Assembly: GCF_030269305.1 (NCBI RefSeq)
Contig: NZ_BSTC01000006.1
Location: forward strand, 62,001 to 126,000
Source of the DNA: Kineosporia sp. NBRC 101731
Lineage (GTDB): Bacteria; Actinomycetota; Actinomycetes; Actinomycetales; Kineosporiaceae
Direction of reading: 5' to 3'
DNA: 64,000 bases
Shown: piece by piece, positions 34,596 to 57,103 of the stretch
How the letters are laid out: every line of letters begins with the position of its first letter
How positions within the stretch are numbered: position 1 is the stretch's first letter
Notes under the pieces: generated by a model
What the model was told of the DNA's origin: nothing
The model's database searches: none
Seen by the model: only the letters and a program-made list of their open reading frames with translations
Translations under genes and position numbers: made by a program

Positions 34596-35377
34596 CGCAG
34601 CACCAGGTGCCCGAGCTGCTCGCCGAGCACGAGGCCGCCGTTGACCGGGCCATCCGGGCGATGCGCCCGGCCCTGTTCCGGGCCGTGCGTCTGGATGATC
34701 ACGCCGCCGCCGGCATGTACAGCCGGTACCACTTCCACCGGGTCTTCCGCGAGGTCACGGGCACCACTCCCGCCCGGTACCTGGCCGGGTTACGGATGCA
34801 GGAGGCCAAACAGCTGCTGGCCGGGAGCGACCTGACCGTCACGACGATCAGCGGCCTGGTCGGTTACGAGAGCCTGGGCACCTTCACCACGCAGTTCGGG
34901 CGGCTGGTGGGCATCTCCCCGGGCCGGTTCCGGCAGCTCGTCGACGAACTGCACGACCTGACGGTGGACGACGTGGCCCTGGGCCCGTGGGCGCACGGGC
35001 CGGGCGCGCCCGGCCTGACCCGTCCACCCCGGGCCACCTTCGTGGGAACGTTCCGCGGAGGTCTGCCGACGGGCGTCCCCGCCTCCTTCACCCTGTTGCC
35101 GGACCTGGACGACACGGTGCTGGCCGCGATCGAGCGCCCCGAACGCGGCCACGCCCCGCTGGCCTTCTCGGTGCCGGCCGGTTCCCGGCTCACCGACATC
35201 GCGGTCGGCGTTCTGGACGACCTGCACGTAGGGACGCCGTCGGTGGCCCGCGAGGGGCCACCGGGTCTGCGCCTGATGCTCCGCATGCGGCCGTGGCGCA
35301 CCGTCGACCATCCGCTCGTGACGGCCGCGGCGGTGCGGCTTCTCGCCGCCCGGCGCCGTCCCGGGACCGCCGCGTGA
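34592..35377 (+). CDS. AraC-family regulator with GyrI/SRPBCC-like effector half
   Basis: The 261-residue protein starts with an AraC DNA-binding domain (about 10-115) containing SRYHFHRVFREVTGTTPARYL and ISGLVGYESLGTFTTQFGRLVG. A C-terminal domain of about 140 residues that may bind a small molecule follows. GTG 34592 overlaps the SRPBCC stop codon by four bases, and its own stop overlaps the kinase gene. A near look-alike in architecture is encoded at 50237-50968 on the other side of the enediyne genes, which suggests a pathway-linked regulator pair. Confidence 0.8.
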   Translation: MTQHQVPELLAEHEAAVDRAIRAMRPALFRAVRLDDHAAAGMYSRYHFHRVFREVTGTTPARYLAGLRMQEAKQLLAGSDLTVTTISGLVGYESLGTFTTQFGRLVGISPGRFRQLVDELHDLTVDDVALGPWAHGPGAPGLTRPPRATFVGTFRGGLPTGVPASFTLLPDLDDTVLAAIERPERGHAPLAFSVPAGSRLTDIAVGVLDDLHVGTPSVAREGPPGLRLMLRMRPWRTVDHPLVTAAAVRLLAARRRPGTAA

Positions 35378-36675
35378 GCGCCGGGTCCCGGGCCCGGTCG
35401 CAGCTGCCGGCCGGTCTGCACGCCGCGGCCCGGCTGGCCCGGATCGCCCTGGCCCTGCTCACGGGGACGGTCCAGTGCCTGCCGGAGCTCGTACGCTACG
35501 CCGGCCATCACGACGGCGTGCGGCTCCAGGCGCAGGCCGGCCGGATCGCCGGGGCCCGGTTGTGGGATCTCGGCCCGGCCTTCGTGAAGATCGGCCAGTT
35601 GCTGTCGACGCGTCAGGACCTGCTGCCGCCACGCCTGTGCGACGAGTTGCGGACCGGTCTGGCCTTCGGGGGACAGGGCCACCGATCCGGCGGCGCAGGC
35701 GGATCTCTTCCGCCCACCGGTGCCCGTGCGGTCGAGATCGGGTCGGTGGCCACCGTGCACCGCGACCACGTCGACGGCACCCCGGTCGCCGTGAAGCGCG
35801 TTCACCCGGGCGCCGAACGGCAGCTGGCGACCGACCTGGCCCTGGTCCGCGGGCTGATGCGGGCCGGCCTGCGGCTGGTGCCACGCAGCCGGGTGCCGCT
35901 GCCGGAGATCGTGGACGAGATGTGCCGCTCCGTACGGCGGCAGACCGACCTGTGCGCCGAGGCCGAGACCCTGAACCGCCTGAGCGGTCTGGGGGACCGG
36001 CTGCCGGTGGTGCTGCCCCGGGTGCTGGAGGGGCACAGCGACTCCGGGCAGCTGGTGATGACCTGGATCGAGGGGCAGGACCCGCACCGGCCCGTCAGCA
36101 CCCCCGACCGGACCGCTCGGCGTCTGGTCCTGGCGCTCTACGAGATGCTTTTCATTACCGGGGTGGTGCACTGTGACCTGCATCCGGGTAACTGGTGGGA
36201 AATGCCGGACGGGCGGATCGCGATCGTCGACGCCGGGTTCGCCTACGAGCTGGACGACGAGATGCGCTCGCACTTCGCCGAGTTCTTCCTCGGGATGTCG
36301 GCCGCCAATGCGGAGATCTGCGCCACCCACGCCCTGGCGGCGTGTGCCGTCCCGGTCGGGCCGGAACAGGAGGCGGGCTTCCGGGCCGACATGGAAGAGC
36401 TGATCAGGTCGAACACCGGTCTGACGGCCGGGACCTTCTCCCTCGCCCGGTTCGCCACCGACTTCTTCATGATCCAGCGCCGTCACCGGGCCTACTCGCG
36501 GGCCACCTTCATCTATCCGTTCATGGCTCTACTGGCCATCGAAGGTCAGGTTAAACAACTTTCGCCTGGATTGAACTTTCAGGCGCTGGCCGGACCGGTG
36601 GTGTTGAGGGCCATCGTCAACCGGGCCCGTTCCGGGTCGTCCGACGTGTACCGGAAGCCGCAAGGTATCGCTTAG
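35374..36675 (+). CDS. ABC1/AarF/UbiB-type atypical kinase-like protein
   Basis: The 433-residue product shows the family-specific KxGQ motif (K72-I-G-Q in FVKIGQLLSTRQDLLP), the Ala-rich loop region (IGSVATVHR), VAVKRVHPG with the presumed catalytic Lys, and HCDLHPGN near 266-273. The metal-binding DFG position reads D286-A-G, a departure from the usual Phe. The stretch between residues 85 and 125 is short and poorly conserved. UbiB-type proteins act on quinone/lipid pathways and hydrolyse ATP. GTG 35374 overlaps the AraC stop, so it is third in the SRPBCC-AraC-kinase operon, 112 bp before the enediyne cassette. Confidence 0.8.
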   Translation: MSAGSRARSQLPAGLHAAARLARIALALLTGTVQCLPELVRYAGHHDGVRLQAQAGRIAGARLWDLGPAFVKIGQLLSTRQDLLPPRLCDELRTGLAFGGQGHRSGGAGGSLPPTGARAVEIGSVATVHRDHVDGTPVAVKRVHPGAERQLATDLALVRGLMRAGLRLVPRSRVPLPEIVDEMCRSVRRQTDLCAEAETLNRLSGLGDRLPVVLPRVLEGHSDSGQLVMTWIEGQDPHRPVSTPDRTARRLVLALYEMLFITGVVHCDLHPGNWWEMPDGRIAIVDAGFAYELDDEMRSHFAEFFLGMSAANAEICATHALAACAVPVGPEQEAGFRADMEELIRSNTGLTAGTFSLARFATDFFMIQRRHRAYSRATFIYPFMALLAIEGQVKQLSPGLNFQALAGPVVLRAIVNRARSGSSDVYRKPQGIA

Positions 36676-36787: not shown

Positions 36788-37759
36788 GTGACGTCAATGA
36801 CGGGCTGTGTCCGGGCGTGGATGCTGACGCCCGGGCCCGACGCGGTCAGGTTCACCACCCGTGGGTTCACCGCCACCGACCCGGCCGCCCGGCGCCGGCT
36901 CGAGGTGGTGGGTGAGACCTTCCTGGCCGGTCTGGATCGCGGACTGGCGGCTCGCGACCTGACGGGCCTGATTCCTGTTCTTGAGGGGATCGGCACGGAC
37001 CGCAGGGGTTTCGCGTTCGAGGGGGCGGCGATGGGCCTGGCTCTGGGGGACGCGCTGACGCCGTGGAACCGGAACCTGTTCGGTCGGTTCCAGGCCGGTC
37101 CGGGGGAGCGGCACGTCTATATGGCGTACGTGGGTGCGGGCTGGGCCATGGCCCGGCTACCGAGGTTCCGGTGGCGGAACATCACCCTTCGGGACCCGGT
37201 GCTGCGTTGGCTCGCGCTGGACGGATTCGGTTTTCACGAAACCTATTTCCGCACCGCGACAGTACTGCAACGCCGGGGTGGCCGACTGGTGCGGCCCCCC
37301 TGGCCGGACCCGACGGGTTACGCCCGGCGGGCCCTGGACCAGGGAACCGGGCGGGCCCTGTGGTTCGTGCGAGGGGCCGACGTGCGGGCCGTCGCGGCCG
37401 AGATCGGCCGGTTCCCGGTCGATCGCCACGCGGATCTGTGGGCCGGAACCGGCCTGGCGGCCACGTACGCCGGCGGGGCCGGCGTGAGTGACCTGCGGAT
37501 CCTGGCCGGGCTCAGCGGTGAGTACCGCCCCGATCTGGCCCAGGGTGCTGCCTTCGCCGCGAAGGCCCGGTTGCGGGCCGGCCTGGTTCAGCCCGAGACC
37601 GTTGACGCAGTAGGTGTTCTCGCCGGCAGTGGGCTGGCGGTCGCCGCCGGCCTGACCGATGAGGCACTTGTCGGTCTCGGCGGTGACGAGCCCGGTGCGC
37701 CGGCCTTCGAGGTGTGGCGGCGGCGGATCCGGCAGGACCTCGCCCGCGTCGTGAGCTGA
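36788..37759 (+). CDS. unbL: DUF1702 enediyne-cassette protein (UnbL/E3-like)
   Basis: The 323-residue protein has the DUF1702 features: FEGAAMGLALGD, HVYMAYVGAGWAMAR, LALDGFGFHETYF and a C-terminal VAAGLTDEALVGL. DUF1702 proteins sit beside enediyne PKS genes and are among the few proteins found in nearly all enediyne loci; their reaction is unknown. GTG 36788 follows AGGGGGA. It opens the five-gene cassette unbL-unbV-unbU-pksE-tebC, all on the plus strand. No signal peptide or membrane helix is clear. Confidence 0.92.
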   Translation: MTSMTGCVRAWMLTPGPDAVRFTTRGFTATDPAARRRLEVVGETFLAGLDRGLAARDLTGLIPVLEGIGTDRRGFAFEGAAMGLALGDALTPWNRNLFGRFQAGPGERHVYMAYVGAGWAMARLPRFRWRNITLRDPVLRWLALDGFGFHETYFRTATVLQRRGGRLVRPPWPDPTGYARRALDQGTGRALWFVRGADVRAVAAEIGRFPVDRHADLWAGTGLAATYAGGAGVSDLRILAGLSGEYRPDLAQGAAFAAKARLRAGLVQPETVDAVGVLAGSGLAVAAGLTDEALVGLGGDEPGAPAFEVWRRRIRQDLARVVS

Positions 37760-37821: not shown

Positions 37822-39720
37822 ATGAAACCGTTCTCCGGACGTCCCGGGCTGCTGGTCGGGGCTCTCGCCCTGGCCCTCTGCGTGGTGGCCGGCCTGCTGA
37901 CCCGTCTGCCCGCAGCGAGTGCGGGGGTGAAGACCGACCTGGCCGGCCGGTTCGGCTTCGAGGTCAGCGACGCCAATGCCGATCCGGCGGGTGCGCGCAC
38001 GATCCGGCCGGTGCAGCCCGCCCTGGAGCACATCCGGTCGTGGATCTCCGCGGTCGGGGCGGGAGGTGGGCTGGCCGACCTGGACGGTGACGGGCTCCCG
38101 GACGAGCGTTGTCTGGTCGACCCCCGGGACGACTCCGTGACCGTGGCCTCGGTGCCCGGGGCGCCGGGGGCTCATTCCTCGTTCTCCCTGGAACCGGTCG
38201 GACTGGAGTACGACTCCTCCACCACCGCGCCGATGGGATGCATGCCCGGCGACCTGAACGAGGACGGCTGGACCGACGTGCTGGTCTACTTCTGGGGCCG
38301 GACCCCGGTGGCCTATCTGAGGGAGCCGGAGACCCCGCTGGGGGCGGCCGGGTTCGTGGCCACGGACATCGTCGACGAGCCGGGCCGGATCTGGAACAGC
38401 ACCACGGCCAACCTGGTGGACCTGGACGGTGACGGTCGCCTGGACCTGCTGATCGGCAACTACTTCCCCGACGGTGCGAGGGTGCTGGACACCTCGGCCG
38501 CCAACGACCCGCTGATGCGGATGCAGTCGTCGATGTCGGTCGCTTCCAACGCCGGCGTCAATCGGGTCCTGCGACTGACCGGGCTCCGGGATGCCGGTGC
38601 CGTGGACGCCCCGGTGTACGAGGACGTGTCCTCGGCCCTGAATGCTGAGGAGTCGCGGGGCTGGACGCTGGCGACCGGGGCGCAGGACCTCGACGCCGAC
38701 GGTCTGCCCGAGCTTTACCTGGCCAATGATTTCGGCCGGGATTTCTTGCTGCACAACGAATCACGGCCCGGTCGGATCAGTTTCTCCCAGCTCCGGGGAA
38801 GCCGGGGCCCGCTGGACCCGAAGTCGAAGGTGCTGGGTAACGACTCGTTCAAGAGTATGGGCGTCGCCTTCACCGACCTGAACGCCGATGCCCGGCCGGA
38901 CATTCTGGTCAGCAACATCACTACCGAGTTTGCCCTTCAGGAGAGCAATTTCGCCTTCACCAGTACGGACGACGCGGCGCTGGAGCAGGGTCGGGCGCCG
39001 TACACCGACGACAGCCAGAACCTGGGTATGGCCCGCACCGGCTGGGCCTGGGACATCAAGGCCGCGGACTTCGACGGTGACGGCAGTGACGAGATCGTGC
39101 AGGCTCTGGGCTTCGTCAGGGGCGATACCAACCGGTGGGCCAATCTGCAGGAACTGGCCATGACGAACGATATGGCGCTGCAGCACCCGGGAGCCTGGCC
39201 CGACTTCGAACCGGGTGACGACATCGCCGGTCATCAGCGCGATCAGTTCCTGGTGCGGGACGGCTCCGGCCGGTTCACCGACATCGGTGAGCAGATCGGT
39301 CTGCGGGATGATGCGGTCAGCCGGGGAGTCGCGATCGGGGACACCGATCATGACGGGCGGCCGGACGCGCTGATCGCCAAGCAGTGGGGCCGGTCCGAGT
39401 ACCTGCACAACTCCGGGCCGGAACGCTCCTACCTGGGCCTGCACCTCACCCTTCCGGCCCGGGGCGCGAACGGTCGGCCCCGGGACGCCGTGGGTGCCCG
39501 GGTCACCGTCACCCTGCCCGACGGCACGACCCGGCGCCAGCAGCTCTATCCGGCGAACGGCCACACCGGGGTGAACGCGCCGGAACTGCTCTTCGGTCTG
39601 GGGACGGAACGGGATCCGGTCGGTGTCGAGGTCTCCTGGCGGGACGAGACCGGTTCACACACCGTGCTCAAATCGCTCTCGCCGGGCTGGCACGACCTCA
39701 CCCTGAAGGCCGCCGGCTGA
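37822..39720 (+). CDS. unbV: FG-GAP/ASPIC-UnbV enediyne-cassette protein (UnbV/E4-like)
   Basis: The 632-residue product begins with a basic then hydrophobic segment (residues 9-30) that is a signal peptide or anchor, so it should act outside the cytoplasmic membrane. At least seven FG-GAP/VCBS-type calcium loops follow, among them DLDGDGLPD, DLNEDGWTD, DLDGDGRLD, DLDADGLPE, DFDGDGSDE and DTDHDGRPD; this is a beta-propeller. The C-terminus is the ASPIC/UnbV domain (GARVTVTLPDGTTRRQQL, PANGHTGVNAPELLFGLG). The reaction is unknown. ATG 37822 follows GGGAGAAAGG. Confidence 0.93.
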   Translation: MKPFSGRPGLLVGALALALCVVAGLLTRLPAASAGVKTDLAGRFGFEVSDANADPAGARTIRPVQPALEHIRSWISAVGAGGGLADLDGDGLPDERCLVDPRDDSVTVASVPGAPGAHSSFSLEPVGLEYDSSTTAPMGCMPGDLNEDGWTDVLVYFWGRTPVAYLREPETPLGAAGFVATDIVDEPGRIWNSTTANLVDLDGDGRLDLLIGNYFPDGARVLDTSAANDPLMRMQSSMSVASNAGVNRVLRLTGLRDAGAVDAPVYEDVSSALNAEESRGWTLATGAQDLDADGLPELYLANDFGRDFLLHNESRPGRISFSQLRGSRGPLDPKSKVLGNDSFKSMGVAFTDLNADARPDILVSNITTEFALQESNFAFTSTDDAALEQGRAPYTDDSQNLGMARTGWAWDIKAADFDGDGSDEIVQALGFVRGDTNRWANLQELAMTNDMALQHPGAWPDFEPGDDIAGHQRDQFLVRDGSGRFTDIGEQIGLRDDAVSRGVAIGDTDHDGRPDALIAKQWGRSEYLHNSGPERSYLGLHLTLPARGANGRPRDAVGARVTVTLPDGTTRRQQLYPANGHTGVNAPELLFGLGTERDPVGVEVSWRDETGSHTVLKSLSPGWHDLTLKAAG

Positions 39721-39775: not shown

Positions 39776-40729
39776 ATGCCCGACCGTCCCCCGGCCGACG
39801 TGCGGATCAAGGCGTTGCGCCGGTTCGCGCTCTCCATCACTGTCTTCAACGTCCTCGGGCACGTCTGGCTGGGGTTCGAGCAGGCCTACCTGACCCCCGT
39901 GGTGGGTGTGCTCACCGCCTACCTCCTGGAGATCGTCCTGGAGACGGTGGACTCCTCCGCCCGCGGGGTGCGCCCGCGGTTCGCCGGGCCGGGCACGACG
40001 CTGCCGGACTTTCTGCTGCCGGCCCACATCACCGGCCTGGCCTGCGCCATGCTGCTGTACGGCAATTCCAGTCTCTGGCCGACGATCTTCGCGGTGACGG
40101 TCTCGATGTGCAGCAAGTACATCGTGCGGATGCGGATCGGCCGCGGTCACCGGCACGTGCTCAACCCCAGCAACCTCGGTATCAGCCTGACCCTGGTGCT
40201 CTTTCCCTGGATCGCCATCGCGCCGCCCTACCAGTTCACCGAGTATGCCTTCGGCCCGGTCGACTGGATCATCCCGGCGGCGATCTTCGCGGCCGGAACG
40301 ATGCTCAACGGCAAGCTCACCCGGCGGGGCCCGCTCATCGTAGGCTGGCTAGGAGGTTTCGTGCTCCAGGCGGTGTTGCGATGGCTACTGCTCGGGGATT
40401 CCCTGGCCTCGGGTCTGCTGGTGGTCACCGGCGTCGCGTTCGTGCTGTTCACCAATTACATGATCACCGATCCCGGCACCACACCCACCGCGCCGTCCCG
40501 GCAGGTGGCCTTCGGGGTGACCGCTGCCCTGGTCTACGGTGCTCTGGTCGCCGCGCACGTGACCTTCGGCCTGTTCTACGCCCTCGTCATCACCTGTGCC
40601 CTGCGGGGCCTGCTGATCGCCGGGTCCCGGCTGCGGGAACCGGCGGGGGAGACCGCGGTGGTGTCGCCGCGTGAAGCGGTACCGGCGGAGCACGGCCGGC
40701 CCGTCGCCGCGGGTGGGGGGCAGGCATGA
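39776..40729 (+). CDS. unbU: RnfD-like membrane enediyne-cassette protein (UnbU/E5-like)
   Basis: The 317-residue polytopic protein has about eight hydrophobic helices. It carries the RnfD/NqrB-type motif HVLNPSNLGISL and a later MITDPGTTPTAPS, the pair that in RnfD surrounds the covalent flavin site. Enediyne UnbU proteins share this fold; electron transfer during polyene tailoring is a common suggestion but unproven. ATG 39776 lies 55 bp after unbV, and its stop overlaps the pksE start (ATGA). Confidence 0.92.
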   Translation: MPDRPPADVRIKALRRFALSITVFNVLGHVWLGFEQAYLTPVVGVLTAYLLEIVLETVDSSARGVRPRFAGPGTTLPDFLLPAHITGLACAMLLYGNSSLWPTIFAVTVSMCSKYIVRMRIGRGHRHVLNPSNLGISLTLVLFPWIAIAPPYQFTEYAFGPVDWIIPAAIFAAGTMLNGKLTRRGPLIVGWLGGFVLQAVLRWLLLGDSLASGLLVVTGVAFVLFTNYMITDPGTTPTAPSRQVAFGVTAALVYGALVAAHVTFGLFYALVITCALRGLLIAGSRLREPAGETAVVSPREAVPAEHGRPVAAGGGQA

Positions 40730-43700
40730 GACCCGGCGCCGACGACGTCGTGATCGCCGGTATGGCGTGCCGGTACCCGGACGCCGACGACCCGGCCCGG
40801 CTCTGGGAGAACGTGCTCAGCACCCGTCGCGCCTTCCGGCGGATGCCGCCCGGACGCCTGTCCCTCGACGAGTACGGCGGGGAGGGGCCCGACTCCACCT
40901 ACGTGACGCACGCGGCCGTACTGGAGGGGTGGGAATTCGACCGGCACCGTTTTCGCGTTCCCGGTGACATTTTTCGCGCCGTCGACCTCACCCACTGGCT
41001 GGCGCTCGAGACCTGTTCGGAGGCCCTGCGCGATGCCGGCCTGCCCGACGGCGAGGGCCTGGATCGCGACCGGGTGGGCGTGGTGCTGGGCAACTCGCTC
41101 ACGGGGGAGTTCAGCCGGGCCGCTCTGCTGCGGACCCGCTGGCCGTACCTGCGTCGCAGTATCGAGCAGGCGCTGCTGGACCAGGGTGGTGCCGGACTGT
41201 CTTCCGAGGCGCGTGAAGCTCTGCTGACCTCGGTCGAGGCCCGGGTCAAGGGCCCGTTCCCGGTACCGTCCGAGGAGACCCTGGCCGGTGGCCTGGCGAA
41301 CACCGTGGCCGGTCGGGTGTGCAACCATTTCGATTTCCACGGAACTGGTTTCACTGTGGACGGGGCTTGTGCATCGTCCCTCGTGGCGGTGGCCACCGGG
41401 GCCGACGCGATCACCGCGGGTCGTCTCGACGTGGTGCTGGCCGGTGGTGTCGACCTGAGCCTCGATCCTTTCGAGATGGTGGGATTCGCGCGACTCGGTG
41501 CCCTGTCCCGGGGCGGGATGCGGGTCTACGACGCGGCCCCGACCGGATTCCTCCCCGGTGAGGGATGCGGGGTGGTGGTGCTCTGCCGGGCGGGTTTCGC
41601 GAAGGAACACAGGATGCCGGTCTATGCGCGCCTGCTCGGCTGGGGGCTGTCGTCGGACGGTCACGGCGGCCTCACCCGCCCGGAGCCGCGGGGGCAGCGC
41701 CTGGCCATCGAGAGAGCCCATGAGATGGCCGGTCTCGCTCCGTCGGCGTCTGAGTTGATCGAGGGACACGGTACCGGTACCGCGGTCGGTGACGAGGTGG
41801 AACTGCGAGCACTGACGGCTGCCCGGGGACCGGGTGCGCCCCGGGCCGTACTGGGCACCGTCAAGGCCAATATCGGTCACACCAAGGCGGCCGCCGGTGT
41901 CGCCGGGTTGATCAAGGCGACCCTGGCGGTGCACCACGCCACGCTGCCGCCCACGACCGGTGTGCACGAGCCGCACGAACTGTTGCGCCGGGAGGACGCG
42001 TCGCTGGAGGTCCTGTCCCGGAGCCGACCCTGGACGTCGGCCGAAAGATACGCGGGAGTCAGTGCCTTCGGTTTCGGTGGGATCAATGCCCATGTCGTGC
42101 TCGGCGCTGCCGGGGCCCGGGGCACCCGGCGGGCGTCCCGGCCCGACCCCCGGCTGACAGTGCGACCACCCGGCTACGAGGTGGTGGTCTGCTCGGCCTC
42201 CGACTCCGGCGCCCTGGCCCGGCAACTGCGGGAGATCGAGCGGGTGGCCGCCCGTCTGGGGCACGGGGAGCTCACCGACCTGGCGGCGGACCGGGCCCGG
42301 CACTCACGGGGGACCGATGAGGCCCGGTGCGCGCTGGCGGTAGCGACCCCGGACGAGCTCCACGCCCTGGCCGGGTACGCGGCGGGGCTGGTCGAGACCG
42401 GTACCCGGGTGGTCGTCGATCCGGTGCGCCGGTTGTTCCTGGGCGCCGGGGCACCGGCCCGGGTGGCCCTGCTGTTCCCCGGTCAGGCTGCGCCCTGTTA
42501 CCCGGGAGCGGGACCGGTCGGCGACCTGCACGAGCTGCCGTCCCGGCTGAGCGCGCCGATGCCGGTCGACCCGGGCACGGTGCCTGACACCGCCCTGGCC
42601 CAGCCCGCGGTCATCCGGTCCTGCCTGGCCGGTTTGAGCTGGATCGAGGAACTGGGGGCCGGGGTGGACGTGGCCGTCGGTCACAGCGTGGGCGAGATCG
42701 CCGCGCTGGTCTGGGCCGGTGCCCTCACCATCGACGGGGCGCTCGAACTGACCGCGGTGCGGGGCCGGGCGATGAGTGCGTCCGGTCACGAGGTGAAGGG
42801 CGGCATGCTGGGTCTGTCCACCGACGTGGAGTCCGCCCGCGAACTGCTGGCCGGACAGGTGGTGGTCGCGGCCGACAACGGCGAGCACCAGACCGTGGTG
42901 GCCGGTCCGCGGGACGACCTGGAGACCGTGGCGGCCCGCGCCCGCGACCGGGGTCTCACCGCGACCTGGGTTCCGGTCGCGCACGCCTTCCATTCCCCGG
43001 CCATGGCGGACGCGGCCGGTCCCCTGAGGAGTGAACTGGCCCGCACGGCTCCGGTCGGCCGACCGGAGCTGCCCGTGGTCTCGACAATCACCGGCCGGCT
43101 GTGGGGGCCGGGCGACGAGGTGAGTGACCTGCTGGTGCGGCAGCTGACGGAACCGGTCCGGTGGCGCGAAGCCCTGAACCGGGTGCAGGCCGATCTGCTG
43201 GTCGAGGTCGGGCCCGGACAGGTTCTGGCCGGGCTGGCCGGGCCGACCGGGCGTCCGGTGGTCTCGATGGATATCGGATCGGGTTCCGCGGCCGGTCTCG
43301 CGGCCGCCACGGCGGCCCTGTTCGCCGCCGGAGCCGTGCCGGACGTCCACCCGTGGTTCGCCCGCCGGCCCTGCCGTCCCTTCGATCCGGCCCGGGAGCC
43401 GGTCTTCCTGACTTCGCCCTGCCAGGTGGAGGTCACCGTCCGGGTACCCGTGCCGTCCGGGGGATCGGTGACGAGCCCGGCCGGCGAGCCCGGACCCGGG
43501 CCCACCGACGAGATCAGGGACGCGGGTACCGACCTGCTGTCGGTGGTCCGGCAGCGGGTCGCCGGCGCGGCCGAGCTGGCGCCGGAGCTGATTGCCGAGA
43601 GCACCGGTCTGATGGCCGATCTGCACCTCAGCTCACTGCGGATCACCCAGCTGGCGGGCGACCTGATGCGTGACCTCGATCTGCCGGCGCCCCCCGGACA

Positions 43701-46131
43701 ACTGGTTCCGGTGACCGCGACGGTCGGGGAGGTCGCCCGCGCGCTCGGTGATCTGAGTTCCGGTGATCCGGAACCCGATGTGGTGGAGGGTGTCTCGCCG
43801 TGGGTGCGAGCCTTCGGTCACCATGTCGTCCCGGCTTCGGCGCCGTCCTCGGTGCCGGCCCGGCGGGCCTGGCAGATGGACGGTCTGGAGGGGCATCCCC
43901 TGGCCGAGGAGATCGGCACGGCGTTCTCCTCCCCGAGGCAGGAGGAGGGGCAGGGGCAGGCCACCCGCCTCCTGGCGCTGCCACCGGGCGCTGACCTGCC
44001 ACCGGAACCGGTGGTGCGCGTCCTGAAAGCCTCTGCCGCCGACCGGATGCCCCTGGTCGTGCTGCATCACGGAGGCGTCGGCGCCGCGATCGGCCGCAGC
44101 CTCGCGGCGGAGTACCCGGACGCTGACATCCTCGTGCTGGACGTACCGCCGACCCCGGACGGGGTGCGGGCGGCCGCGGCCGAAGCCGCCACCGCCTGGC
44201 GGGGGCACCACGAGATCGTCCACGCCGCCGAGGGTTCCCGGATGCGACCGGTGAGCACGCTGCTCGAGGTGCCGGCCGGTTCCGGGGCGTCGCTCGGGGA
44301 GGAAGGGGCGGTGGCCGGTCGTGGTGACGTCGTCGTGGTGTCGGGCGGGGCCCACGGCATCGGCCTGGAGTGCGCGCTCGCGCTGGGAGCGGCCACCGGC
44401 GCCCGGATGGTGTTGCTCGGTCGCAGTCCGGCCACCGCCGCCACGGTCCGGAGCGGGCTGGCCCGGTTCGCGCCGGAAAGCGTTGTCTACGAGCAGGTGG
44501 ATGTCACGGATGCCGCCGGCGTCCGGACGGTGATGGCGAGGGTGGCCGAACGGATCGGCCCGGTGCGAGGGCTTCTCCACGCAGCCGGCCGCAATGTGCC
44601 CGCGCTGATCGCGGACATCACCACCGAGGGTTTGCGGGAGACCCTGGCCCCGAAGATCACGGGCTTCGAGAACCTGGTCGCCTGCGTGGATCCCGGCCAG
44701 TTGCGTTTCGTCGTCACCTTCGGGTCGGTGATCGCGCGCACCGGTCTGGCCGGACAGGCGGAATATGCGATCGCCAACGAGTGGCTGGGCCGGCGTTGCC
44801 GGGAGCTGACGCGGTCGCGGCCCCGGGTGCGGTGGCTGAACGTCGGCTGGTCGGTATGGGAGGGCACCGGGATGGGAGAGCACCTGGGAGCGGTCGACCG
44901 GCTGCGCCGGCAGGGCGTGGCCCCCATCCCGACCGGTACCGGAACCGATTGGCTACTCAGGCTTCTTGCTACGCCCGGACTCCCGCCGGACGTCATGGTC
45001 AGCGGTCGGCTGCCAGCCGGGCCGGGACTGGCCCGCCCGGCCGGTGCCGATCCGGGCGGCCGGTTCCTGGAGACCCTGCGCAGCCACACACCCCAGGTGG
45101 AACTGATCGCGGACTCGGCCGTGTCGCTGGGCACCGACCAGGCCCTGGCCGACCACCGGGTCGATGGCGTGGTCCTGCTCCCGGCGGTGCTCGGGCTGGA
45201 GGCGATGGCGCAGGCCGCCGTCGAGGTAGGGGCCAAACCGGTGCCCGGAACCTTCCGGGATCTGCGCCTGGCCGCGCCGGTGACCGTGCCCGAGCGAGGC
45301 AGTCGCACGGTTCGGGTGGCCGTGCTCGCCGGTGACGACGGCAGCGTGCGCGCCGTGTTGCGCAGTGAGGAGACGGGTTTCTCGACAGATCATTTCGCCG
45401 CCACGCAGACAGCCCTCGAGGCGAAGGACAGCGGCCCGGGCCGGACGCTGCCACCGGGCCGACCGATGCCGGCCGCCGGGTTGTACGGATCGTTGTTCTT
45501 CCACGGGCCGAGATTCGCCCGGGTGCGCGGGCTGTACCGGCTCGGTGCCTACGAGGTGCTGGCGACGGTCGGTACCGATCCGGGGGCCCGGTGGTTCGGT
45601 GAGTTCCTCGACCAGCGGCTGGTGCTCGGCGATCCGGCCGCCCGGGACGCGATGATCCATGTGCTCCAGGCCTGTGTCCCCGACCGTCGGGTGCTGCCGG
45701 TGTCGGTGGACCGGGTCACCGTGCACGCCCGTGCGGAGGGGGAGATCACCGTGCACGCGGTCCAGATGTCGCAGGACGAGACGGATTTCGTCTTCGACGT
45801 GACGGCCTCGGACGTGACCGGTGTGCTCCTCGAGCGGTGGAGCGGGCTGAGGGTGCGCTCGGTCGGTCCTCTCGACTGTTCCGGTCTGGCGCTGCCGCTG
45901 GTCGGGCCGCTGGTGACCCGTGCCCTCAATACGGGGGACGAGGGCTACGACGTCCGGGTGGTGCCGGCCGGGCCGGGAGAACCCGGCGTGATCGAGCAGT
46001 TCCGGCTCGTCGGCGCCCCCGGCTCTCGCGCGGGGGTGAGCTGGCACCGGGGCACCGGGGCGACCTCGCCGGAAGGTGCCCTGCGACTGGATACGGCCGC
46101 GGGACCGATCACGGTGGAGGTCGCACGATGA
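40726..46131 (+). CDS. pksE: Iterative type I enediyne polyketide synthase, no visible PPTase domain
   Basis: The 1801-residue synthase has the enediyne domain order KS-AT-ACP-KR-DH. KS: Cys215 (DGACASSL), His348 (EGHGTG) and His385 (NIGHTKAA). AT: Ser654 in GHSVGE, then HAFHS. ACP: Ser970 in LHLSSL. KR: SGGAHGIG from 1206 and Tyr1347 in EYAIANEW. DH: His1477 in DHRVDGVVLLP and the later GDPAARDAMIHVLQACVPDRR. Enediyne PKSs are usually about 1900-2000 residues and end in an integrated 4'-phosphopantetheinyl transferase. Here the dehydratase ends near residue 1706 and only 95 residues follow, without the expected acidic metal-binding and Lys-rich motifs. So the ACP must be activated in trans if the enzyme works. 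Its start overlaps unbU and its stop overlaps the thioesterase gene. Confidence 0.95.
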   Translation: MRPGADDVVIAGMACRYPDADDPARLWENVLSTRRAFRRMPPGRLSLDEYGGEGPDSTYVTHAAVLEGWEFDRHRFRVPGDIFRAVDLTHWLALETCSEALRDAGLPDGEGLDRDRVGVVLGNSLTGEFSRAALLRTRWPYLRRSIEQALLDQGGAGLSSEAREALLTSVEARVKGPFPVPSEETLAGGLANTVAGRVCNHFDFHGTGFTVDGACASSLVAVATGADAITAGRLDVVLAGGVDLSLDPFEMVGFARLGALSRGGMRVYDAAPTGFLPGEGCGVVVLCRAGFAKEHRMPVYARLLGWGLSSDGHGGLTRPEPRGQRLAIERAHEMAGLAPSASELIEGHGTGTAVGDEVELRALTAARGPGAPRAVLGTVKANIGHTKAAAGVAGLIKATLAVHHATLPPTTGVHEPHELLRREDASLEVLSRSRPWTSAERYAGVSAFGFGGINAHVVLGAAGARGTRRASRPDPRLTVRPPGYEVVVCSASDSGALARQLREIERVAARLGHGELTDLAADRARHSRGTDEARCALAVATPDELHALAGYAAGLVETGTRVVVDPVRRLFLGAGAPARVALLFPGQAAPCYPGAGPVGDLHELPSRLSAPMPVDPGTVPDTALAQPAVIRSCLAGLSWIEELGAGVDVAVGHSVGEIAALVWAGALTIDGALELTAVRGRAMSASGHEVKGGMLGLSTDVESARELLAGQVVVAADNGEHQTVVAGPRDDLETVAARARDRGLTATWVPVAHAFHSPAMADAAGPLRSELARTAPVGRPELPVVSTITGRLWGPGDEVSDLLVRQLTEPVRWREALNRVQADLLVEVGPGQVLAGLAGPTGRPVVSMDIGSGSAAGLAAATAALFAAGAVPDVHPWFARRPCRPFDPAREPVFLTSPCQVEVTVRVPVPSGGSVTSPAGEPGPGPTDEIRDAGTDLLSVVRQRVAGAAELAPELIAESTGLMADLHLSSLRITQLAGDLMRDLDLPAPPGQLVPVTATVGEVARALGDLSSGDPEPDVVEGVSPWVRAFGHHVVPASAPSSVPARRAWQMDGLEGHPLAEEIGTAFSSPRQEEGQGQATRLLALPPGADLPPEPVVRVLKASAADRMPLVVLHHGGVGAAIGRSLAAEYPDADILVLDVPPTPDGVRAAAAEAATAWRGHHEIVHAAEGSRMRPVSTLLEVPAGSGASLGEEGAVAGRGDVVVVSGGAHGIGLECALALGAATGARMVLLGRSPATAATVRSGLARFAPESVVYEQVDVTDAAGVRTVMARVAERIGPVRGLLHAAGRNVPALIADITTEGLRETLAPKITGFENLVACVDPGQLRFVVTFGSVIARTGLAGQAEYAIANEWLGRRCRELTRSRPRVRWLNVGWSVWEGTGMGEHLGAVDRLRRQGVAPIPTGTGTDWLLRLLATPGLPPDVMVSGRLPAGPGLARPAGADPGGRFLETLRSHTPQVELIADSAVSLGTDQALADHRVDGVVLLPAVLGLEAMAQAAVEVGAKPVPGTFRDLRLAAPVTVPERGSRTVRVAVLAGDDGSVRAVLRSEETGFSTDHFAATQTALEAKDSGPGRTLPPGRPMPAAGLYGSLFFHGPRFARVRGLYRLGAYEVLATVGTDPGARWFGEFLDQRLVLGDPAARDAMIHVLQACVPDRRVLPVSVDRVTVHARAEGEITVHAVQMSQDETDFVFDVTASDVTGVLLERWSGLRVRSVGPLDCSGLALPLVGPLVTRALNTGDEGYDVRVVPAGPGEPGVIEQFRLVGAPGSRAGVSWHRGTGATSPEGALRLDTAAGPITVEVAR

Positions 46132-46625
46132 GCGCACATCCCTACTACGCGCACCGGCACCGGGTGACGCTGGACGAGACCAACCTGGTGGGTAACGTCT
46201 ACTTCGCGCACTACCTGCGGTGGCAGGGGCATTGCCGGGAGAACTTCCTGGCCGATCATGCCCCGGGGGTGATCGCCGCGCTGGCGTCGGGCCTGGCCCT
46301 GGTCACGCTCGACTGCTCGGCCGAGTTCTTCGCGGAGGGCCAGGCCCTGGACGTCGTGGAGATACGGATGCGTCTGGACTCGCAGACCGGTCACCGGCTG
46401 ACGATGTCCTACGACTACGTGCGCACCCTCCCGGCGCCCGAGATACTCCTGGCCCGCGGTACCCAGTCGGTGGCGGTCATGGAGCGGGGGGCGGAAGGAC
46501 TGAGGCCGGTCCGGATACCGGACGAGCTCACGAAGGCTCTTGATCCGTACCGGTTCCGGGCCGACGGTGGACAGCCGGCCCGGAACGCTCAGAGTGCGGC
46601 CGGCACCGGGACGGTCTCGGGCTGA
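46128..46625 (+). CDS. tebC: Enediyne hot-dog thioesterase (TebC/E10-like)
   Basis: The 165-residue hot-dog-fold thioesterase releases the nascent polyene from PksE. The signature is present in order: D16-E-T-N19, GNVYFAHYLRWQG (22-34) and C36-R37-E38. Asn19 and Arg37 correspond, as I recall, to residues important in CalE7-type enzymes, which lack the usual acidic nucleophile. The ATG overlaps the pksE stop (ATGA), so the two are translationally coupled. Its last 37 bases overlap the end of the convergent membrane-protein gene. Confidence 0.93.
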   Translation: MSAHPYYAHRHRVTLDETNLVGNVYFAHYLRWQGHCRENFLADHAPGVIAALASGLALVTLDCSAEFFAEGQALDVVEIRMRLDSQTGHRLTMSYDYVRTLPAPEILLARGTQSVAVMERGAEGLRPVRIPDELTKALDPYRFRADGGQPARNAQSAAGTGTVSG

Positions 46626-47350
46626 TCCTCCGCCGCGAGCGCGCCGGCGGTGCCGGTCTCCCAGGAGGCCCGCACCGCGGCCCGTTCCCGCCACAGGTGT
46701 CGGAGGGCAACGGCGAAGATCGCGGTCCCGACGATGTTGGCCAGGAAGTGCCACCAGATCCGGTAGGTCCACAGCCCGGGCCCGGGCGGCATCAGGCCCA
46801 GCCAGGTGGACAGGCCGATCGGCCGGGCCGCTCCCAGGCCGACCGAGAGGGTCAGCACCAGGTGCTCGACGCCGTGGATGCCCTGCATCCAGGTGCCCAT
46901 CACACCCCACCGGCGCGACCGGGTTCCGAGCGTGTGCCGCGTGATCAGCGCAACGCCGACGATACCGGCGAGGAAGATCGAGTTGCCGACGAAATGCAGG
47001 ATCTCCATACCGAAACCGGGTGTGTCGGTGGTGAACGAGCTGAATCCCCGGGCCAGGCCGTCACCCCACGGCGTCATCCAGGGCTTGGCCTCCGGATGCA
47101 TCGCCCAGTACCCCACCTGGGCGATGTGCTCCTGCACGTGCCCCAGCTGGCCGATCACGCCGGCTCCGATCACGGCCAGGCTGGCCCGGTACACCCAGAG
47201 CTGGCCGGGGCGTCGCCCGGCGACGGCCAGGCGCAGGACAGCAGCCCACATGACGATCGCCCAGAGCCCGAGTCCGGCGGCGCCCAAGGTGTCCCACAGA
47301 GACGCCTGTCCGCCCGCCATCTGCATCGGTTGGTCCATGTCCATAGTCAC
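46589..47350 (-). CDS. Polytopic membrane protein with conserved-looking histidines
   Basis: The 253-residue product has about six transmembrane helices. His residues lie at helix ends in three places: LGHVQEHIAQVGYW, MQGIHGVEHLVLTL and RIWWHFLANIVG. The N-terminus is Met-rich (MTMDMDQPMQM). Paired membrane histidines suggest a metal or haem site, but no family could be assigned firmly. GTG 47350 follows GGAGG; ATG 47344 is an alternative. It converges with the thioesterase (37-bp overlap) and is divergent from the KR-like gene, so it is probably part of the locus. Confidence 0.75.
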   Translation of the reverse strand: MTMDMDQPMQMAGGQASLWDTLGAAGLGLWAIVMWAAVLRLAVAGRRPGQLWVYRASLAVIGAGVIGQLGHVQEHIAQVGYWAMHPEAKPWMTPWGDGLARGFSSFTTDTPGFGMEILHFVGNSIFLAGIVGVALITRHTLGTRSRRWGVMGTWMQGIHGVEHLVLTLSVGLGAARPIGLSTWLGLMPPGPGLWTYRIWWHFLANIVGTAIFAVALRHLWRERAAVRASWETGTAGALAAEDQPETVPVPAAL

Positions 47351-47491: not shown

Positions 47492-48943
47492 ATGACTCTG
47501 CCCGCGACAGATCTCACCTTCGCGCCGACCGGCTCCGGTCAGCGCCCCGGTCCCGACGGCGATTCCGTGCTCGTGACGGCGGAGGGTGAGGCCCGGGTGA
47601 AGCTGGGTGAGACCTGGCGGCCCGGTGATGCCGGGCTGCTCCTGGACGGGGTGCGGTGGGCCCTGGCGGCCGGGGTGCCCCTGGTGCTGGAGCACGGGGG
47701 TGCCGGCGGTGGGAGTCTGCTGTGGGCGGCTCGCGCCGAGCATCCAGGCCTGCGGGTGAGGGAAGTGGGCCCCTCACCCGGTTGGCGTCACGTTCCCCTC
47801 GAGATTGCCGTCGGACCGCCGCGCATCGAGGGCCTCGCCATCACCGGAGGGCTGGGCGGGATCGGCCGGCATCTGGCGGCCCGGTCGGCGGGCTCCTTCC
47901 GTTCGGCCGGTCGGGGAATTGTGGCCGGTTCGGGTGGTGTGGCCGGTTCGGATGGTGCGGCCGGTTCGGATGGTGCGGCCGGTTCGGGTGGTGCGGTCGG
48001 TTCGGGTGGTGCGGTCGGTTCGGGTGGTGCGGTCGGGCCCGGTGGTGCGGTCGGACCGGGAACCGGACGGGTGTGGCTGGTCGACCGGCGTCCCGTCACC
48101 GGTCACCTGCCCGCCGGCGCGCTCTCGAGCACCGCTGACGTGGCCGCACGGGTTCCCGAACGGCCCTGGCCCGTGACCCATCTCGTGCAGGCGGCCGGCC
48201 GTCTGGACCTGACCCCGGTGCTGGACCTGGATGTCGCGGTGCTGGAGGAGAGCGCGGTCGAGAAGGCCGTGGCGCTGCGGCGGTGGGTGACGGCGCTGGC
48301 CCCTCAAGGGCTTCGCTCGGTGGTGGCGTTCGGCTCGGTGGAGTCCCGGCGTCCCCACCCGATGTTCGGGGCCTATGCATTGACGAACGAGTTGTTGCGA
48401 CGGGAGGCGGCCCGGTTGCGCCCGGAGTTCCCGGGGGTACGGATCGTTGTGGCCGAGTGGTCGCTGTGGGAGGGGGTCGGGATGGCCGCGGCCAGTGCCC
48501 AGGCGGCCGCGGGTGCGGGTTTCGCCGTCGTACCGGCCGGCTGGGGCGCCGATGTGACCTTCGCGTTGCTCGACGAGCGGAACCGGGTGCCGCCCGACAT
48601 CGCCCTGGGTGGGCCGCAGTCCGGTCCGGGCCGGGAGGTCTGTGGCATCGGGGGAGTGGGTGGTACCGCGCTGATCGGCGGTGACGGCCCCGGCGGCGTG
48701 TCGGTCGGAGCGGGAGGGACGAGCAGCCCGGACCGCTCCGGTCAGGACAGTCAGCGACTGGACCGACTGGACCGGCTGGTGCGGATCTGCCGACCGCCGT
48801 CCGGGGCGAGGCACCGGCGACTCGGCCTCGGCGAATCCGGTGGCCCGGCAGGCAATGTGGCGCGTGCGGTGGTGCGTGGGCGGCAGGTGACGACGTCCCG
48901 GGCGGTGAACTGGCCCGGCGGATCCGCGCGGAACGCGGGTTGA
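47492..48943 (+). CDS. Free-standing ketoreductase-like protein related to the PksE KR region
   Basis: The 483-residue protein parallels the part of PksE before and through its KR. It has a structural subdomain with VPLVLEHGGAGGG (compare MPLVVLHHGGVG in PksE), a nucleotide-binding GGLGGIG, an HLVQAAGRLD segment and catalytic-type Ser282 (FGSVESRR) and Tyr295/Asn299 (GAYALTNELL). AEWSLWEGVGM matches the PksE GWSVWEGTGM. A Gly/Ser/Ala/Val hexapeptide repeat interrupts the Rossmann fold after GGLGGIG, and the segment up to the catalytic Ser is shortened. Residues after about 380 are low in complexity. It may be a stand-alone reductase, a chaperone-like partner or a degenerating duplicate. Confidence 0.75.
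   Translation: MTLPATDLTFAPTGSGQRPGPDGDSVLVTAEGEARVKLGETWRPGDAGLLLDGVRWALAAGVPLVLEHGGAGGGSLLWAARAEHPGLRVREVGPSPGWRHVPLEIAVGPPRIEGLAITGGLGGIGRHLAARSAGSFRSAGRGIVAGSGGVAGSDGAAGSDGAAGSGGAVGSGGAVGSGGAVGPGGAVGPGTGRVWLVDRRPVTGHLPAGALSSTADVAARVPERPWPVTHLVQAAGRLDLTPVLDLDVAVLEESAVEKAVALRRWVTALAPQGLRSVVAFGSVESRRPHPMFGAYALTNELLRREAARLRPEFPGVRIVVAEWSLWEGVGMAAASAQAAAGAGFAVVPAGWGADVTFALLDERNRVPPDIALGGPQSGPGREVCGIGGVGGTALIGGDGPGGVSVGAGGTSSPDRSGQDSQRLDRLDRLVRICRPPSGARHRRLGLGESGGPAGNVARAVVRGRQVTTSRAVNWPGGSARNAG
47921..48064 (+). repeat. 18-bp coding repeat in the KR-like gene
   Basis: About seven in-frame 18-bp units (core GGTTCGGGTGGTGCGGTC) encode Ala/Val-Val/Ala-Gly-Ser/Pro-Gly/Asp-Gly. The array lies in the nucleotide-binding half of the Rossmann fold, where PksE has no such insert. 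Confidence 0.85.
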
Positions 48944-51060: not shown

Positions 51061-52401
51061 CTAAAAGCGCTGGTGGTAACCCACCGTGGTGGGAGCCAGC
51101 CGCATGATGCCCAGACCGGGCGCCGCGGCCGGCTCCGGCGTCATCAGCTCCAGGTCGTGGCATCGGGTCAGCAGACCCAGGATCGTGCCCATCTCCAGCT
51201 CGGCGAACCGTGTGCCCAGGCAGGCGTGCAGCCCACCGCCCTGGTTGAGCAGACCCGACCGGGCCACACCGCCGGCGTCCCGATCCGGGGCGAAGCGCCC
51301 GGGGTCGAACCGGTCGGGGTCCGGGTAGAGATCCTCGTCCCGATGGGTCACAGGCGGGCAGAACAGCGTCTGCCAGCCGGCCGGCACGGTGAAGTCCCCC
51401 ACACGGTAGGCGGTGGCCGTCTGGCGGGTCAGCATCGTGGTCACCGGGCGCAGCCGCTGCGCCTCCAGCAGGCACCGGGAGAGCTCACCGGCCCGGCGCA
51501 GCGGGGCCAGGTCGTCGTCCTCGACCACGTCCACCGGGCCGGGCAGGAGATCACACACCTCGTCACGCACGCGGCGGGCGATCGCCGGATGCTGCAGCAG
51601 GAGAACGAGCGCCCAGCCGGTCTGGGCCGACGTCGTCTCGTAGGCGGCGTACACGAGAATCATGATCAGGCCACCGAGAGTCTCGTCGTCCATCGGCTCG
51701 GAGGCGGTGCTGCGCACGAGATGGCCCAGGAAGCCGTAACGTTCGGGGTCCGGATCCTGCCGTACGCGCTCCAGGTAGGGCCGCATCAGCTCGAAGGCCT
51801 CCCGGCGGGCCCGGTTACGGCGGATCAATCGGGGCAACGGTGCGTTCGCCGGGAGGAAGAATTCCATCCCGGCCGCGATGTCGGTGAACAGCCGCCGGAA
51901 CCGGGGGCGGTACGGCTCGAACTCCGGTCCGAGGAAGATCCGCATTGCGATCCGCATCGACACGTCGTCCAGCTCGGTGCCGATGTCGAAGGTTCCCTCG
52001 GTGCCCAGCCGGCCCAGCCAGGCACGGACCTCCGCGGCCATGGCGGTCAGGTAGGCGTCGTGGTGGTGGGAACGGAACGCCGGCATCAGCGCGTCCCGCT
52101 GCCGCAGGTAGACCTCGTGGTCGGCGGCCTGCATCACCGCCCCGAACATCGGCCGGAGCCACTGGTAGACCGGTGCGACCGCGAGAACCGTCTCGGGCTG
52201 GGCAATCGCAGCCTTGCTCTCGGCCGGCCCGACCACCACCGCCGCCCGCCGGGGTCCCATCCGGACCGTGAACACCGGACCCTGTTCCCGCTGCCCGCGC
52301 CGCATCAGGGCGACCGGGTCACGCATGAACTCGCCCAGGTTGCCGATGAACCGGCCCCCGCTGATCAGCGGGGGCGTCCGGCTGCCGGTCAGGAGGGTCA
52401 T
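51061..52401 (-). CDS. Cytochrome P450
   Basis: The 446-residue haem monooxygenase has an I-helix YAAYETT, the ExxR motif (EAQRLRP) and the haem-ligand region QGGGLHACLG with Cys as fifth ligand. The Phe normally seven residues before that Cys is not present in standard form. Length and N-terminus suit the CYP51/CYP110-like bacterial group rather than the compact CYP107 type. It overlaps the methyltransferase gene upstream by four bases, so the pair is one transcript. A tailoring role in the enediyne locus is inferred from position. Confidence 0.85.
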   Translation of the reverse strand: MTLLTGSRTPPLISGGRFIGNLGEFMRDPVALMRRGQREQGPVFTVRMGPRRAAVVVGPAESKAAIAQPETVLAVAPVYQWLRPMFGAVMQAADHEVYLRQRDALMPAFRSHHHDAYLTAMAAEVRAWLGRLGTEGTFDIGTELDDVSMRIAMRIFLGPEFEPYRPRFRRLFTDIAAGMEFFLPANAPLPRLIRRNRARREAFELMRPYLERVRQDPDPERYGFLGHLVRSTASEPMDDETLGGLIMILVYAAYETTSAQTGWALVLLLQHPAIARRVRDEVCDLLPGPVDVVEDDDLAPLRRAGELSRCLLEAQRLRPVTTMLTRQTATAYRVGDFTVPAGWQTLFCPPVTHRDEDLYPDPDRFDPGRFAPDRDAGGVARSGLLNQGGGLHACLGTRFAELEMGTILGLLTRCHDLELMTPEPAAAPGLGIMRLAPTTVGYHQRF

Positions 52402-55840: not shown

Positions 55841-57103
55841 ATGACCACGTCCCGGACACATCCCGGAACCGAGGCCGAGCCCGACGTCCTGATGCAGCTC
55901 CTGATGCCGGAGGGACGGGACGACCCCTACCCGATCTATGCCCGGCTCCGGCACGAGTCCCCGCTCTACGCAAGCCAGTTCGGCGCCTACCTGATCAGTC
56001 GCCACGAGGACGTGGACCGCGTGCTGAAGCGGGCCGACCTCTTCCCGGGGGTAGACCCGGAGATGATGGACCAGATGTTCCCCCAGGCGGTCGAGCACGA
56101 GGCGTTCGAGGTGCTGGTGACCGCTCTGGTGGGGAGCAACCCGCCGAAGCACACCCGGTTGCGCGGGCTGATCGGGAACGGGTTCACCGCCCGTCGCCTG
56201 GCCGGCCTGCGTCACGGGCTGGAGCACCGCACGGAACAGGTGCTGGCCGACGTCGCCGAACGGCTGCGCTCGGGGGAGACCGTGGACCTGCACGAGTCGA
56301 TCTCCATGCCGATCCCCATGCACATGATCTCGGACCTGATCGGTATTCCGGAGGCCGACCGGAGGCGGCTGGCCCAAGGGGTGCCGGAGATGATGAATGT
56401 GGTCGACCCGGCGGCCACGCCCGAGGCGGTGCAGCGGGCCGACGAGGCGTTCCGCGCTCTGGGGGAGTATCTGGACGGCCTGATCGCCCGGCGCCGGTCC
56501 GACCCCCGCGACGACCTGGTGTCCATGCTGGTGGCGGCGCGGGACGAGGAATCGGGCCGGGTGGACGACAAGGAACTGCGCAACCTGCTCTTCACACTCT
56601 GGTCGGCCGGTTTCGAGACCACGGCGACGGCGATCGACAACGCCGTGCTGCTGCTCCTGGCCGACCCGTCCCGGTCCCGCTGGTTGGAGAACGAGCAGAG
56701 TACGGCGAGTTTCGTCACGGAGACCCTGCGGTACGAGCCGTCGGTCCACGTGGCCCCCGGTATCCGGTTCGCGGCCCAGGACGTGGAGCTGAGCGGGGGA
56801 ACAGTGCCGGCCGGAGCCCAGGTGCGGTTGCTCATCGGTTCGGCCAACCGGGACGGGGAGGTGTTCGAGAACGGTGACACGTTTGACCCGGGCCGTCCGA
56901 CGGTGGCCTCGGCCCGGCCGCTCAGTTTCGGCGCGGGTATCCATTACTGCCTCGGAGCCGGGCTTTCCATGGTGGAGATGGGGGTGTTGCTACCTCGTCT
57001 GCATCACCTGTTCCCGAGCCTGGTTCTGGCGGGACCGCCGGTGCGCCGCCGTTCCATCCCGCTACGTGATTTCGCTGCGATCCCCGTTCGTCTCGCGGAC
57101 TGA
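55841..57103 (+). CDS. Cytochrome P450 (CYP107-like)
   Basis: The 420-residue P450 is of the compact soluble actinobacterial type. The I-helix has AGFETTA, the K-helix ExxR is in TETLRYEP and the haem loop is LSFGAGIHYCLGA. The conserved HTRLR and NGFTARRL segments are present. AGGAGG lies just before ATG 55841, 10 bp after the di-domain SRPBCC stop. Such enzymes tailor polyketides by hydroxylation, epoxidation or cross-linking; the substrate here is unknown and the link to the enediyne is positional. Confidence 0.92.
   Translation: MTTSRTHPGTEAEPDVLMQLLMPEGRDDPYPIYARLRHESPLYASQFGAYLISRHEDVDRVLKRADLFPGVDPEMMDQMFPQAVEHEAFEVLVTALVGSNPPKHTRLRGLIGNGFTARRLAGLRHGLEHRTEQVLADVAERLRSGETVDLHESISMPIPMHMISDLIGIPEADRRRLAQGVPEMMNVVDPAATPEAVQRADEAFRALGEYLDGLIARRRSDPRDDLVSMLVAARDEESGRVDDKELRNLLFTLWSAGFETTATAIDNAVLLLLADPSRSRWLENEQSTASFVTETLRYEPSVHVAPGIRFAAQDVELSGGTVPAGAQVRLLIGSANRDGEVFENGDTFDPGRPTVASARPLSFGAGIHYCLGAGLSMVEMGVLLPRLHHLFPSLVLAGPPVRRRSIPLRDFAAIPVRLAD

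Follow-up and report, generated by a model that had tools for sequence, protein, structure and literature searches.

How does an enediyne polyketide synthase (PKS) obtain an active carrier protein when the domain expected to activate it is absent? These synthases are held to be characterised by self-activation through a built-in phosphopantetheinyl transferase (PPTase). The question is raised by a 64,000-nucleotide stretch of Kineosporia sp. NBRC 101731 (contig NZ_BSTC01000006.1, positions 62,001 to 126,000; hereafter the window), which encodes an enediyne-type iterative PKS, PksE, with the domain order ketosynthase (KS), acyltransferase (AT), acyl carrier protein (ACP), ketoreductase (KR) and dehydratase (DH), but with no PPTase. 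The first-pass annotation, made from the sequence alone, had noticed this and suggested that PksE is either activated by another PPTase or a member of a divergent subclass. The evidence favours both jointly, as PksE falls in a clade of 15 among 85 compared PksEs, in most of which the PPTase is eroded or lost, and the genome has one detected discrete PPTase, of Sfp type, on contig 22. We consider it probable that PksE is a working enediyne PKS whose ACP is activated in trans by this enzyme. Beyond the earlier proposal, the compared sequences indicate that the PPTase has been lost repeatedly, with intermediates still extant, and that this clade has a different ACP motif.

The open reading frame (ORF) of PksE (40726..46131, forward strand, 1801 amino acids (aa)) is as described previously, including the ATGA overlap shared by its stop and the start of the thioesterase gene that follows. 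The domain order was recovered with Pfam, the ACP lying under the Pfam cut-off and being backed by its aligned motif, and the DH fold being present in the structural model. The phosphopantetheine site, HLSSL (residues 967-971, 43624..43638, forward strand), in which Leu follows Ser970, fits the enediyne ACP motif H(L/M)(S/T/N)S(I/L) given in the accessible part of PMC3107222, which also names the second serine of CalE8 HMSSI as the required one. Past the DH, Pfam found no domain in PksE. When residues 1441-1801 are modelled with AlphaFold2, the DH fold extends to approximately residue 1716 (DH region, residues 1441-1716, 45046..45873, forward strand) and only 85 residues follow (residues 1717-1801, 45874..46128, forward strand). 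The DH thus goes a little beyond the end near residue 1706 given in the first-pass annotation, which had counted about 95 residues in the non-PPTase tail. This tail, standing where relatives have their PPTase, consists of a linker helix and low-confidence strands (predicted local distance difference test means of 49-67 in blocks from model residue 301 onward).

Neither the model nor the profile and hhalign comparisons found a PPTase fold or match in the tail. On a PPTase profile for which nine relatives were used, PksE scores -0.1 bits, and its last 88 residues align with 13 PPTase domains at a probability of 2.3% in hhalign, with only the linker aligned. The Asp-x-Glu and Glu/Lys residues of a C-terminal PPTase domain are missing from PksE: the tail position aligned to the PPTase Asp is Ser, and the Trp-Glu-Lys helix is without a counterpart. 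Near the metal motif, the tail is weakly similar to the PPTase region of the Couchioplanes (L025) and Actinoplanes (L026) PksEs (16 and 11 of 2000 shuffles for 61 residues; 122 and 46 of 2000 for 49 residues), and the tail is probably a linker plus a scrap of a former PPTase. This similarity could also be taken as the sign of a minimal, still active PPTase of a new kind, which we regard as very improbable given the 85-residue length, the lack of the Asp/Glu/Lys set and the low model confidence; also weighing against an active tail is the accessible part of PMC4103896, in which residues 1 and 3 of the PPTase metal triad are reported as essential.

A PPTase deleted by an assembly or sequencing error is similarly improbable. 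The assembly is a draft, and in one homologue (L086) the PPTase is spread over two frames, but the PksE frame closes on the start codon of the thioesterase gene, as in several relatives, and short tails recur in clade members sequenced from other genomes. Moreover, in all six frames of the window no ORF of at least 70 aa matched an Sfp-type profile and no non-PKS ORF of that length matched an enediyne-PPTase profile, so no frameshift hiding a PPTase was seen, and a sequencing error concealing a longer frame was rejected. The same search upholds the earlier statement that the window contains no other PPTase gene.

Is the window an isolated case? Nine homologues were obtained from searches of 13 and 246 genomes, and a scan of named genomes contributed the best 80 of 563 loci encoding a relative; of 90 rows, five were dropped, leaving an 85-row comparison with the window included. 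In a FastTree phylogeny of the 85 rows, using columns up to the DH, the window falls in a set of 15 with support 100, apart from the 70 others, and IQ-TREE recovered the identical set with support 100 from 30 chosen rows. The branch around 11 non-clade rows was supported at 100/100 in a 26-row tree. A tree of the KS-AT columns, for which two other PKSs served as outgroup, places the 15 in a clade (95/92) beside 11 canonical rows (92/88), although this root is tentative because the outgroup branches are long. The clade comprises the window, Couchioplanes, Actinoplanes aureus, Rhizohabitans, three Actinomadura, one more genome of the same order, Nocardia NRRL S-836, three Saccharothrix, Amycolatopsis coloradensis, Actinokineospora diospyrosa and Goodfellowiella.

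Within this clade 14 of 15 members score below 76 bits on the PPTase profile, compared with at least 95 bits for all 70 non-clade homologues, eight of which contributed to the profile. Eleven of the 15 are without PPTase catalytic residues, requiring at least three changes within the clade. A second group of eight PksEs (L063, L057, L066, L038, L043, L065, L021 and L053), which have the ACP motif SSVTVMH in common, carries a full-length but catalytically eroded PPTase. Overall, 22 of the 85 PksEs fall short in their PPTase, with at least seven changes on the tree, and the compared PksEs form a graded series from intact PPTases through those with a changed triad and those eroded yet apparently folded to outright deletion. 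Shortened tails occur in several genera.

The rest of the synthase tells a different story, as 11 active-site residues of the KS, AT, ACP, KR and DH are invariant in all 85 sequences, including the 22 with an eroded PPTase. Five of these (Cys215, Ser654, Ser970, Tyr1347 and His1477) had been listed as intact in the first-pass annotation, and are invariant in 10 aligned homologues as well; the other six are further positions which we take to belong to the active sites. On this sequence comparison it is the PPTase alone that decays while the other PksE active sites stay conserved, a pattern hard to reconcile with pseudogene decay. The reading in which the synthase is dying, its PPTase loss being an early step of such decay in a PKS that makes nothing, is accordingly given a low probability. 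It can draw on the faster evolution of the tail than of the DH in some pairs (nonsynonymous divergence, dN, of 0.28 versus 0.15 in L032/L033) and on the 18-bp repeat array in a neighbouring KR-like ORF. Yet a faster tail is also found where the PPTase is intact (L059/L068), the biosynthetic cassette around PksE is open and conserved, and the short tails recur in several genera.

If PksE functions, which enzyme would activate it? The genome (8.26 Mb in 88 contigs, 99.11% complete) was searched for Sfp-type PPTases, as the first-pass annotation had advised, and yielded one PF01648 match, an intact-looking 285-aa Sfp-type protein on contig 22 (L001) that carries GVDAE and WARKES motifs with the PF01648 domain and whose best solved match is Sfp (E 6.9e-7). 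AcpS was considered as the activator and rejected, none being found in the genome with TIGR00516 or with an AcpS-like query taken from this family. A relocated enediyne-type PPTase was likewise rejected, since all matches of the genome to the enediyne-PPTase profile were weak (best E 0.126). PF01648 matches once in five of six genomes of the genus (G000, G005-G009) and twice in the sixth, and a single Sfp-type PPTase may, judging from these counts and from the failure to find an AcpS in the genome of the window, serve both fatty-acid and secondary metabolism in the genus. Seven other genomes of the family have 2-4 matches at E up to 1, some being under the cut-off or fragments of one gene, and each of the 14 other clade genomes has at least one match above the cut-off.

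Discrete PPTases were also sought beside the homologous synthases, in 12,343 ORFs of at least 70 aa from loci L015-L104 and the window, with flanks of up to approximately 8 kb per side and some loci ended by contig ends; the control, 27 of 27, consisted of the profile's own members. No discrete PPTase was found, as the four Sfp-profile matches all lay within PKS-length frames, and a discrete PPTase in flanking DNA was rejected for the flanks searched. The only non-PKS match to the enediyne-PPTase profile was the second piece of the L086 frame (Nocardiopsis metallicus), in which the PPTase coding is split over two frames by a frameshift or a sequencing error. With a single PPTase detected and none in the flanks, the contig-22 enzyme is by elimination the likely activator, and a separate housekeeping enzyme must probably activate the window synthase.

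The ACP itself offers a possible reason for such a switch. The residue after the phosphopantetheinylated serine (Ser+1) is Leu in 14 of the 15 clade members and Phe in the remaining one; all eight PksEs of the second eroded group have Val there, and the 62 others Ile. The clade ACPs read Ser-Leu-Arg/Gln, compared with Ser-Ile-Thr in a canonical enediyne ACP. At Ser+4, Met is found in all eight of the second group, Val or Thr in 11 of the 15 clade members and Gly in 49 of the 62 others. The accessible part of PMC11744666 reports Sfp loading of approximately 95% with Leu and approximately 30% with Ile at Ser+1, in an ACP that also had a Gly change, and states that positions -3, +1 and +4 of TycC3 matter for Sfp; CalE8 ACP was loaded by Sfp in vitro despite its Ile, as the accessible part of PMC3107222 shows.

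Several observations weigh against the reading of trans activation eased by the ACP. Ser-3 is His in all 15 clade ACPs whereas it is Gly in TycC3; Ser+1 changed twice on the tree and is thus tied to descent; four clade members with the Leu motif retain PPTase residues, while three rows without these residues keep the usual Ile; and the trend at Ser+4 falls short of significance (same direction in 2-3 of seven pairs, p 0.25-0.5). For these reasons the link between Ser+1 change and PPTase loss is not statistically significant and is suggestive only, although the four motif-bearing members that retain PPTase residues could mean that the ACP changed first. The direction, loss rather than gain, is assumed, since change counts cannot show direction. 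Finally, a PPTase gene of an unusual type could escape detection, as PF01648 picks up only two of 13 enediyne-type PPTases at E up to 1. This last point, together with the 88 contigs, is what speaks for a dedicated PPTase, divergent or of an unknown family, lying undetected in the genome or in assembly gaps. We hold this to be improbable, about as much so as a dying synthase, because the enediyne-PPTase profile gave weak matches only, no discrete PPTase occurs in the window or in the searched flanks of homologous loci, and the genome is nearly complete.

The course of events that best accounts for the data would begin with the C-terminal self-activating PPTase of the clade becoming dispensable, and it would now be in the process of being lost. 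Ser970 would be phosphopantetheinylated in trans by the Sfp-type PPTase of contig 22, after which chain building by KS, AT, KR and DH and release by the E10 thioesterase would take the usual enediyne course, the Ser+1 Leu of the clade having eased the switch. That the PKS works, that the contig-22 PPTase acts on its ACP and that Leu helped is what we infer from sequence. A broader proposal, which we offer tentatively and think somewhat more likely to be wrong than right, is that activation of enediyne PKSs has been handed over to other enzymes several times: housekeeping Sfp-type PPTases would have become able to load the ACP through a change in its recognition helix (Ser+1 Leu in one clade, Val with Ser+4 Met in the other), after which the built-in PPTase lost its active site. 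In some lineages it would persist as a folded but catalytically dead pseudo-PPTase that plays a structural part, whereas in the window it would be nearly all deleted.

If synthases of this kind can do without the PPTase and have lost it repeatedly, annotation by domains that counts on its presence will mislabel a whole clade, and heterologous expression of synthases from this clade would need a suitable PPTase to be supplied. The graded PPTase series also makes the co-evolution of carrier protein and PPTase directly testable, and the recurrent erosion in an otherwise conserved synthase is of greater interest than the single case of the window.

PksE lies in a five-gene E3/E4/E5/E/E10 cassette, identified by Pfam and gene calls, with E5 placed by position and conservation. 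All on the forward strand, the cassette opens with the E3 homologue (DUF1702, 36788..37759; PF08012, E 3e-108), called in 12 of the 15 clade loci including the window, and the E4 homologue (FG-GAP/UnbV-ASPIC, 37822..39720; PF13517 and PF07593), called in all 15. Next comes a gene (39776..40729) present in all 15 loci but with no Pfam family at E 0.001, which we take to be E5. PksE is followed by the E10 thioesterase (46128..46625, 165 aa, no fused PPTase; 4HBT_2, E 2.3e-10), again in all 15. The accessible part of PMC5181780 describes this cassette as common to all enediynes, and the best solved relative of PksE by sequence is the DynE8 acyltransferase (E 8.6e-98). By its cassette and predicted domains the window PksE is of the enediyne PKS kind, but outside the self-activating (SgcE) subtype.

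Beside the cassette stands an ABC1/UbiB-like kinase gene (35374-36675, forward strand), of a family present in seven of the 15 clade loci including the window, and a DUF6008 gene (46589-47350, reverse strand) lies antisense to E10, overlapping its 3' end. A separate KR-like ORF (47492-48943, forward strand, 483 aa) shares 38% identity over 111 aa with the PksE KR; an 18-bp tandem repeat of 7.3 copies (47923-48054) adds a Gly/Ala/Ser-rich stretch to it, and gene calling within the stretches covered gave no separate copy at any other clade locus. Further downstream, a sulfotransferase gene is directly followed by an alkyl-sulfatase-like metallo-beta-lactamase gene (59036-61113, forward strand), with two P450s (51061-52401 and 55841-57103) and an ABC transporter (57153-59005) nearby.

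Compared with known systems, SgcE, CalE8 and DynE8 share with the window the KS-AT-ACP-KR-DH order, the E3/E4/E5/E/E10 cassette and the H-L-S-S-(I/L) motif. SgcE and DynE8 carry a C-terminal PPTase domain. So does CalE8, according to the accessible part of PMC3107222, whereas the window PksE has only the short tail after its DH; CalE8 also has Ile after the serine (HMSSI) where the window has Leu. The nearest relatives among the matches listed, the Couchioplanes and Actinoplanes PksEs (best segments 53% and 52% identical), have the same cassette and the same Ser-Leu-Arg ACP motif, but keep a longer PPTase region of 187 residues after the DH in which the third metal-triad residue is altered (DWA and DWD). 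A Herbidospora enediyne PKS of 1795 aa, likened here by description rather than sequence, is listed with KS, AT, ACP, KR and DH in the accessible part of PMC4599437, where no remark is made on a missing PPTase, and may be another PPTase-less case. A literature search, mostly short of full text, found no statement that enediyne PKSs lose their PPTase. The nearest functional precedent, by analogy, is RerA/RerB of Rhodococcus erythropolis PR4 (PMC11563203), an enediyne-like iterative PKS that likewise lacks an integrated PPTase and is activated by a PPTase on another protein, whose inactivation abolished the pigment. RerA has two ACPs and its PPTase sits on a neighbouring protein with a thioesterase domain, a split not seen in the window, where the next gene encodes a lone 165-aa 4HBT thioesterase and no PPTase was found nearby; the window PksE would resemble RerA in being activated by another protein, but with the partner encoded on a different contig.
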